From Candidatus Neomarinimicrobiota bacterium (GTDB taxonomy: Bacteria > Fidelibacterota > SORT01), in NCBI GenBank assembly GCA_022573815.1, contig JACZTG010000007.1, positions 1-64,000 of the forward strand: DNA of 64,000 bases. Direction: 5' to 3'. The stretch's first letter is position 1. Each line of letters starts with the position of its first letter. The notes under the pieces are model-generated. The model saw nothing but the letters and a program-made list of their open reading frames with translations, did not search any database and was not told the origin of the DNA. The position numbers and the translations under genes are program-made. This document shows, piece by piece, positions 17,861 to 31,927 of this stretch.

Positions 17861-18220
17861 TCAGTGATTATAAACGAAAGTAATAACCTCGGGCGTGAGC
17901 TTGAAAAACATAATTAATCCGTAAGCGGTCCAGAGAGCAATTTTAGCCCAGTTCTTTTTCTCCGTTTTCGGTTCTAATGAAATTCCTTCACCGCCGGCTT
18001 CACCTTCATCTTTTTGCGTGCGACCATATTCCATATAATATGCCGCACCTAACAGCAATATAGTTGCCGTAACATTGTAAGGCCTGTTTTCGGCAAACCA
18101 TGGACCTATATTAAATCCGGCAAGACCTATTACATTAAGCGTCGCCGGACCGACGCAGCATAGTGTTGACATAAAACCTGTACCGATTGCAGCGAACGAT
18201 GCGAGAATACTCCAAATCAA
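17861..18220 (-). CDS. MerT-like mercuric/metal transport membrane protein
   Basis: A 119-residue membrane protein with about three helices. The first helix carries a Cys pair, MSTLCCVGPATLNVIG (Cys21-Cys22), the hallmark of MerT/MerF-type inner-membrane metal uptake proteins. A second helix (ATILLLGAAYYMEY), an acidic Gly/Glu-rich cytoplasmic loop and a third helix follow. In MerT a second Cys pair lies in the loop; here it is absent, so the function may differ. No merA, merP or MerR regulator is adjacent, though an exported HMA protein lies at 8864-9199. Substrate uncertain. Confidence 0.65.
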   Translation of the reverse strand: MIWSILASFAAIGTGFMSTLCCVGPATLNVIGLAGFNIGPWFAENRPYNVTATILLLGAAYYMEYGRTQKDEGEAGGEGISLEPKTEKKNWAKIALWTAYGLIMFFKLTPEVITFVYNH

Positions 18221-30626: not shown

Positions 30627-30653
30627 GATTACAAATTAAGAAGCATTAATGTG

Positions 30654-30680
30654 ACCGGCAGTTACTGCCGGTCTTTTTAT
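30654..30680. terminator. Terminator between the 3D-domain gene and the selenoprotein gene
   Basis: ACCGGCAG (30654-30661) pairs with CTGCCGGT (30665-30672) over a 3-base loop, followed by CTTTTTAT on the plus strand. The minus-strand gene ends at 30677, within it. Confidence 0.85.
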
Positions 30681-31288
30681 TTCGAAGATTTTTTATTTTG
30701 TTTTAGGAGTTCACCAAATTCATATCCAAGCGATCCTGAAGTGGCAATGACGGTTCTACCCTTTTCGACGAGAGGACCGGGAATTTTATCCCACTTTGCA
30801 TCCTTGTCATAAAGAAAAAACATATCCCATGCTACAGATGCGTTAACGTCGGGAACAATATTCTTTTTGAAAAAAGTGCCGCTGATACGGGTTTGATCCC
30901 AGAAATGATGTACCCTTAAGTCAGGAAGGAGAGCTACTGCCCCTGGAACAGCCAACCTTGAGTCTCCACGTATAACAGGCATCCACACAGCATAAATTTC
31001 AAAATCAGCATCGGGATATTTATCGAGAATATTTTTTTGTACCCACCGGGCACCACGAGCGCAGACTGGTCACGTGGGTGAAAATAGTAAAAAAAGTCTG
31101 ATTTTACCGGTGTCTTTATTAAATAACTTTTCCAGGGTATTAATGCTTTTAAGATCATTGAATCGCGCTTCACGATATTGCGTCGAGACAGGAGGAGCTG
31201 CAATCGAATCGACCGAGAAAAGCAAAATTGAAACGATCAGCAGGAAATATTTATTTTTTATGTTTAGCGTTTTCACAATAATGTCCAA
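30677..31288 (-). CDS. Thioredoxin-like selenoprotein, UGA-encoded Sec in a UxxC motif
   Basis: A single 204-codon frame runs from ATG 31286-31288 to the stop at 30677, interrupted only by an in-frame TGA at 31070-31072. Reading TGA as selenocysteine gives FSPT-U-PVCARGARWVQ, a UxxC redox motif (Sec73, Cys76) directly after a hydrophobic beta strand (KIRLFLLF). This is where a thioredoxin fold carries CxxC. A signal peptide (about 1-30, ending SIAAP) places it in the periplasm. Sequence after the TGA (YPDADFEIYAVWMPVI, then VHHFWDQTRISGTFF) stays protein-like and agrees with a family of exported proteins I recall with Cys or Sec at this site. It is likely a thiol oxidoreductase. Conventional annotation would call two broken genes. 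Confidence 0.8.
31041..31079 (-). promoter_or_regulatory. Candidate bacterial SECIS hairpin at the Sec codon
   Basis: On the minus strand ACCCAC (31079-31074), just before the TGA, pairs with GTGGGT (31046-31041). Inside, ACCA (31070-31067) pairs with TGGT (31055-31052) around a loop containing GTCTGC. The apical stem-loop position, within 20-30 bases after the TGA, is where bacterial SelB-binding elements lie. Confidence 0.5.
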
Positions 31289-31448: not shown

Positions 31449-31467
31449 TCGGACAATTGTTGTCCGA
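31449..31467. promoter_or_regulatory. Perfect palindromic operator, likely bound by the Rrf2 regulator
   Basis: TCGGACAA (31449-31456), spacer TTG, TTGTCCGA (31460-31467): an exact 8-bp dyad just after the -10 box and 23 bases before the Rrf2 start codon. Rrf2/IscR proteins bind such dyads as dimers, so autorepression is the natural reading. Confidence 0.65.
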
Positions 31468-31489
31468 ATTAAAAAGGCGATTGGATATA

Positions 31490-31927
31490 ATGGAATTTAC
31501 TTCAAAAAGTGAACACGCAATTCATGGTTTATACTATCTGTCGAACAAGCCGATTGACGAGGTAATTTATGTGAGTGAAATTGCGCGCGAACAAAACGTG
31601 TCAGAGAGCTATCTTGCCAAGATATTTCAGTCACTCGCAAAAGCGGACCTCGTAAAATCATATCGCGGATCCAAAGGTGGTTATACCCTGACTCGAAAAC
31701 CTCAAGATATAAACCTCAAGGAAGTAATTGAGGCAGTAGAAGGGATAGTCCCTATATTTAATTGCAGCGGAGTAAAATCTAGTTGTTCGGTCAGCATTCA
31801 TTGTATGATTCAAGAAACATTCAGTGAAGCTGAAGCGAAAATGTTTGAGGTATTAGAAGGAGTTACTATGCAAGGTATCTCCGAACAACTTCAGGGTCAG
31901 AGTATAGTAATCGATAACAACTATTAG
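31490..31927 (+). CDS. Rrf2-family Fe-S-type transcriptional regulator
   Basis: A 145-residue regulator starting at ATG 31490 (MEFTSKSEHAIHGL); a TTG start 33 bases earlier would run through the operator palindrome and is unlikely. The winged helix has VSEIAREQNVSESYLAKIFQ and SYRGSKGGYTLTR. Three cysteines, NCSGVKSSCSVSIHC (spacing six then five), match the cluster-binding loop of IscR/NsrR-like members with slightly unusual spacing. It probably senses Fe-S or redox state and controls the downstream mrp and sufT genes, 27 bp away, plus itself through the 31449-31467 dyad. Confidence 0.85.
   Translation: MEFTSKSEHAIHGLYYLSNKPIDEVIYVSEIAREQNVSESYLAKIFQSLAKADLVKSYRGSKGGYTLTRKPQDINLKEVIEAVEGIVPIFNCSGVKSSCSVSIHCMIQETFSEAEAKMFEVLEGVTMQGISEQLQGQSIVIDNNY

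Follow-up and report, generated by a model that had tools for sequence, protein, structure and literature searches.

The minus-strand frame at positions 30677-31288 of the window (the whole 64-kb stretch of DNA analysed here) very probably encodes an exported thioredoxin-fold selenoprotein of an apparently uncatalogued family, with selenocysteine (Sec) inserted at an in-frame UGA under the direction of a hairpin. The first-pass annotation had read this frame as an unannotated selenoprotein, a reading now supported by the Sec machinery of the genome, by homologues with TGA or TGY at the same codon and by a structure model. The frame holds 204 codons with a single TGA at 31070-31072 and ends in TAA; on re-reading, its extent and the residues around the TGA (KIRLFLLF, SPT-U-PVC and ARGARWVQ) were as first described. 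It had also been foreseen that gene callers would split the frame, and the mechanical ORF list gives two ORFs, 31070-31288 (72 amino acids) and 30677-30988 (103 amino acids). Frames with a single TGA, more than 70 codons before it and more than 110 after it occur twice in the 64-kb window; the second overlaps a called gene by 97%, and the selenoprotein frame alone is free of such an overlap. The window genome (2.39 Mb, 96% complete) and those of its nearest relatives are draft assemblies from uncultured bacteria.

The start of the gene is likelier to be the GTG at 31276 than the alternative TTG at 31288, since a GGA lies upstream of the former at a spacing of about 7 nt and a signal-peptide-like stretch follows it. 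The coding sequence would then span 30677-31276 on the minus strand (199 residues plus the stop, as against 203 residues from the TTG) and Sec would be residue 69; purifying selection before as well as after the TGA and homologues in three phyla support this coding sequence. The signal-peptide-like N terminus (MKTLNIKNKYFLLIVSILLFSVDSIAA, 31196-31276, minus strand) was recognised by reading the sequence, and lipobox-like ends (LAGC, VAGC, LTAC) are found in several relatives. An inverted repeat (GACCGGCAG-TTA-CTGCCGGTC, 30653-30673) lies between the selenoprotein gene and a convergent gene. Its T-run is on the plus strand, so that it suits the convergent plus-strand gene as a terminator-like element, and read on the selenoprotein strand it forms a hairpin that no U tract follows. 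Of the earlier claim that the frame reaches a normal stop beside a terminator, the TAA stop thus stands and the terminator for this gene does not.

The structure was predicted with AlphaFold using 36 family members (pLDDT 89, about 98 in the core). The confident model agrees with the earlier reading of a thioredoxin fold in which the TGA occupies the first position of CxxC, with the UxxC motif placed at the start of the helix that follows the first core strand. The best PDB matches found by Foldseek were TlpA/ResA/DsbE-like oxidoreductases and GPX (TMt of about 0.5-0.6, E 3.4e-6, probability 1.00). Four features do not vary among the 36 aligned members, namely the Sec/Cys and the second Cys of the motif, the proline of SPT and a Trp-Asp pair. 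The window family is like the TlpA/ResA/DsbE-type extracytoplasmic thioredoxins in predicted fold, order of strands and helices, active-site position and probable export, but differs from them in having no sequence match at the Pfam cut-offs and in its invariant Trp-Asp before strand 4, as against the usual cis-proline of the TlpA fold (a placement inferred from strand order). The window protein itself had no match in the Pfam or NCBIfam profiles, including the TlpA/AhpC-TSA and thioredoxin Pfam families, and the best Pfam score among the 36 members was with PF00085 (E 5.8e-4).

A single-sequence scan of genome contigs found no homologue; an alignment-based search of genome contigs gave five loci, including TGA forms in Chloroflexota- and Acidobacteria-labelled MAGs, and no member was found among the viral contigs or plasmids searched. 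The family was present in 47 of 396 genomes of the Acidobacteria-labelled phylum and in 9 of 400 of the Chloroflexota-labelled phylum, mostly in the TGA form; about an eighth of the genomes sampled from the former phylum carry this selenoprotein family, which standard gene calling cuts in two. Identity to the window protein was 71% in G001, 69% in G002 and about 47% in one further Neomarinimicrobiota homologue. Sixty-eight distinct loci were read, most of them UxxC, with 12 CxxC and two UxxU. The two UxxU members (L114, 4144-4515, and L129, 57-431, both on the minus strand) have TGA at both positions of the motif, SPT-U-PK-U. One copy (L145, 148-596, in G826) extends over two frames, through a frameshift or an assembly error, and one genome (G402) holds three paralogues (L097, L149 and L150), two with Sec and one with Cys.

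A TGA or a Cys codon stands at the Sec column in 67 of 67 tree members, and the comparison with homologues called for in the first-pass annotation came out as 55 U and 12 C at this very column. The homologues do not end at the UGA codon: they have either TGA with a frame conserved beyond it or TGY. The Cys forms are scattered over the tree, which was built with the Sec column masked and implies at least 9 Sec/Cys switches; exchange at the UGA codon is thereby reconstructed as having happened repeatedly. These many natural Sec/Cys pairs, together with the two UxxU members, make it possible to ask what advantage selenium confers on an exported thioredoxin fold. Among three genomes of the window's family, pN/pS was 0.16-0.24 downstream of the TGA, as against 0.32-0.40 upstream, values of which only the contrast is meant since synonymous sites are near saturation.

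The window genome was checked for Sec machinery, as had been proposed, and tRNA-Sec, selA, selB and selD are all present; of the refuting outcomes named beforehand, neither a lack of this machinery nor homologues ending at the UGA codon was observed. The tRNA-Sec scores 64.5 bits (cut-off of 47 bits) and has the anticodon TCA/UCA; selA (545 bits) and selB (359 bits), both above cut-off, are side by side on one contig (C1). The selD gene, also above cut-off, carries its own in-frame TGA in STSGG-U-ACK (L022, about 1180-2211) and is thus itself a selenoprotein gene, with a hairpin that satisfies the published bacterial SECIS rules (PMC13188914). Since 176 of the 244 genomes from the window's phylum have selA, the machinery by itself is weak evidence. 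Both MAGs in which homologues were first reached outside the phylum, one Chloroflexota- and one Acidobacteria-labelled, have tRNA-Sec. Within the Acidobacteria-labelled phylum, selA was present in 34 of 37 genomes with the TGA form versus 209 of 349 genomes without the family gene; it was not found in three TGA-form genomes (G512, G350 and G386), which is assumed to reflect MAG incompleteness. One genome with the Cys form and long contigs (G575) is without selA.

Bacterial SECIS elements are described as having a stem of 4-16 bp, a loop of 3-9 nt with a G in its first two positions, a distance of 16-37 nt from the UGA and an MFE of -7.5 or lower (PMC13188914). A candidate of this type, GUGCCC-GGU-GGGUAC, lies at 31039-31053 on the minus strand, with a 6-bp stem and a GGU loop 22 nt after the UGA, and agrees with these rules with a borderline energy (about -8.3 kcal/mol with flanking bases as dangling ends, -6.9 bare). 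It is at the weak end of its family, the same stretch has another possible fold at -9.1, a strict automatic SECIS filter missed it, and the Rfam search gave no SECIS match. As MFE z-scores of single hairpins proved uninformative here, covariation was used instead. In the 16 sequences of the window's clade, 94.8% of cells are paired between columns 20-25 and 29-34, with a GGU-type loop. Most hairpin columns encode conserved residues and carry little information; the informative pair is that of columns 21 and 33 (third bases of codons, for Gly and Val in the window), which is CG in 10 sequences, UA in 4 and GC in 2, with none broken. This covariation was reached in 0 of 500 shuffles, and its normalised mutual information is 1.0 against 0.53 for the next best pair. 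Because relatedness inflates shuffle tests, the argument relies on how many kinds of pair are seen across phyla. In a sister clade (13 sequences) an 8-bp hairpin is found, in which five pairs have both of their bases replaced; its stem (columns 13-20/24-31) was tried for the window's clade and does not fit there. The Cys forms mostly keep few pairs (2-5 of 8 and 1-5 of 6).

Two other explanations of the interrupted frame were weighed. The gene may be dead or falsely broken, either because TGA arose by mutation from a Cys codon or because a base was misread. Such an account would draw on the split of the frame by a TGA one base away from TGC or TGT and on the draft state of the nearest genomes, but conservation strongly disfavours it, and it is considered highly improbable. 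The same TGA codon is present in five other Neomarinimicrobiota genomes (G001, G002, G051, G134 and G129) and in dozens elsewhere; that so many separate assemblies share it, among them two of the same family as the window, leaves little likelihood of a sequencing error. The purifying selection after the TGA and the Sec machinery in the genome also count against a pseudogene. The codon could otherwise be read as another amino acid without selenium, namely as Cys by a tRNA-Cys with a UCA anticodon or as Trp by a near-cognate tRNA. UGA suppressor tRNAs of such kinds occur in some bacteria, and the Cys found in homologues without TGA would suit this decoding; against it stand tRNA-Sec, SelA, SelB and SelD in the genome, and SECIS-type hairpins, which show covariation among the TGA forms and have for the most part disappeared from the Cys forms. 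Of 53 long ORFs, moreover, 13 have UGA as their stop, which speaks against a code change across the genome, and decoding without selenium is judged very unlikely too. The remark in the first-pass annotation that RF1 in the window does not read UGA carries no evidential weight here, since it is RF2 that recognises UGA. The selenoprotein assignment of the window gene, drawn from sequence comparison, has high confidence.

For this selenoprotein the following mechanism is proposed. The hairpin just 3' of the UGA would direct SelB and Sec-tRNA(UCA) to insert Sec at residue 69, which would give the active site S-P-T-Sec-P-V-Cys. Outside the cytoplasm, the selenolate would attack either a disulfide or a thiol-bound soft metal, and the Cys at the third position past Sec would resolve the intermediate. 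From the fold, the leader and the lipobox-like ends that relatives show, we infer export and selenol/thiol-disulfide exchange, and the protein is most likely an extracytoplasmic selenol/thiol-disulfide oxidoreductase, as judged from the sequence and the model.

As of 2026, 119 prokaryotic selenoprotein families or subfamilies have been catalogued (PMC13188914), and the window family appears not to be recognisable among them. None of the catalogued families that have NCBIfam or Pfam models matches the window protein, the sequence comparison covering these modelled families. Among the new families of deep-Sep, as far as the available part of that source goes, there is no thioredoxin-like UxxC protein. 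SaoT (NF040730), listed with other Sao and mercury-related selenoproteins (PMC13188914), is likewise thioredoxin-like with UxxC/CxxC, but the family falls far below its NCBIfam cut-off, with an E value no better than 0.17, reached by two of the eight members compared. UxxC and the thioredoxin-like character are also shared with the Sargasso Sea "thiol-disulfide isomerase-like" selenoprotein (PMC1088965), which is possibly of the same family as the window protein; it is one of the cd02966 entries (PMC13188914), and the window protein has no match in Pfam.

In a subset of distant relatives, merT, merA or merR adjoins the family gene. A MerT at or above the PF02411 cut-off adjoins it in several loci, including the Sec forms L091, L101 and L104; in L094 a Sec copy lies between MerA and MerR; and L096 (5149-8588) holds a cluster of merR, a MerT-thioredoxin fusion in the Cys form, a MerP-like gene and a merA whose product is a true MerA by the TIGR02053 cut-off. 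The flavoprotein of L093 was rejected as a MerA, being a PRK06370-type oxidoreductase. The fusion has a likeness in NF045683 (MerT/CopZ fusion-like heavy metal transport selenoprotein), which also joins MerT to a second domain; this profile gives the MerT half of L096 a weak score (38.7 of 375 bits), and the fused domain in L096 belongs to the thioredoxin-fold family rather than being CopZ. The fusion offers a testable tie between selenoproteins and mer loci.

Within 2.5 kb of the family gene (308 kb in total) 6 loci have MerT, 5 have MerA and 11 have MerR, versus 1, 0 and 3 at 2.5-7.5 kb (438 kb in total); this density is a lead and not a proof, since the Mer queries came from three of the counted loci, one counted MerA (L093) is not a true one and the thresholds were set by the authors. 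A mercury role is thereby suggested for the mer-linked branches. Extended to the whole family and the window member, it would have the selenol/thiol pair take Hg(II) for MerT-type transport or strip Hg from thiols. This concerns function only and is compatible with the selenoprotein explanation. The fusion, the Sec forms beside MerT or between merA and merR, and the greater density of mer genes nearby speak for it, but it remains unlikely for the family as a whole: most loci, including all six from Neomarinimicrobiota, have no nearby mer gene, the reference Mer sequences came from counted loci, and the MerT-like ORF of the window lies 12.5 kb from the selenoprotein gene and below the Pfam cut-off. 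That ORF (17861-18220, minus strand) encodes a small membrane protein with STLCCVGP (PF02411, E 7.6e-4), beside which no further mer genes were seen. A narrower proposal, somewhat less doubtful and still tentative, is that of an unrecognised multi-phylum family of exported thioredoxin-fold selenoproteins (UxxC, CxxC, double-Sec UxxU) whose members in part of their range began in, or were recruited to, mercury detoxification, and there use the affinity of Se for Hg(II) to pass the metal to or from MerT.

On its other side, the selenoprotein gene is divergent from an Rrf2-family regulator gene (31457-31927, plus strand, likely ATG at 31490; TIGR00738, 115.8 bits against a cut-off of 73.3). An Rrf2 regulator adjoins the selenoprotein gene in three genera (those of the window, L087 and L088), in which synteny with Mrp/SufT-type genes (named by eye) is conserved as well. 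A palindrome, TCGGACAA-N3-TTGTCCGA (31449-31467), found once in the window with 0 expected, precedes the Rrf2 gene; it is exact in G001, has one base changed in G002, and is likely a candidate operator of the Rrf2 regulator.
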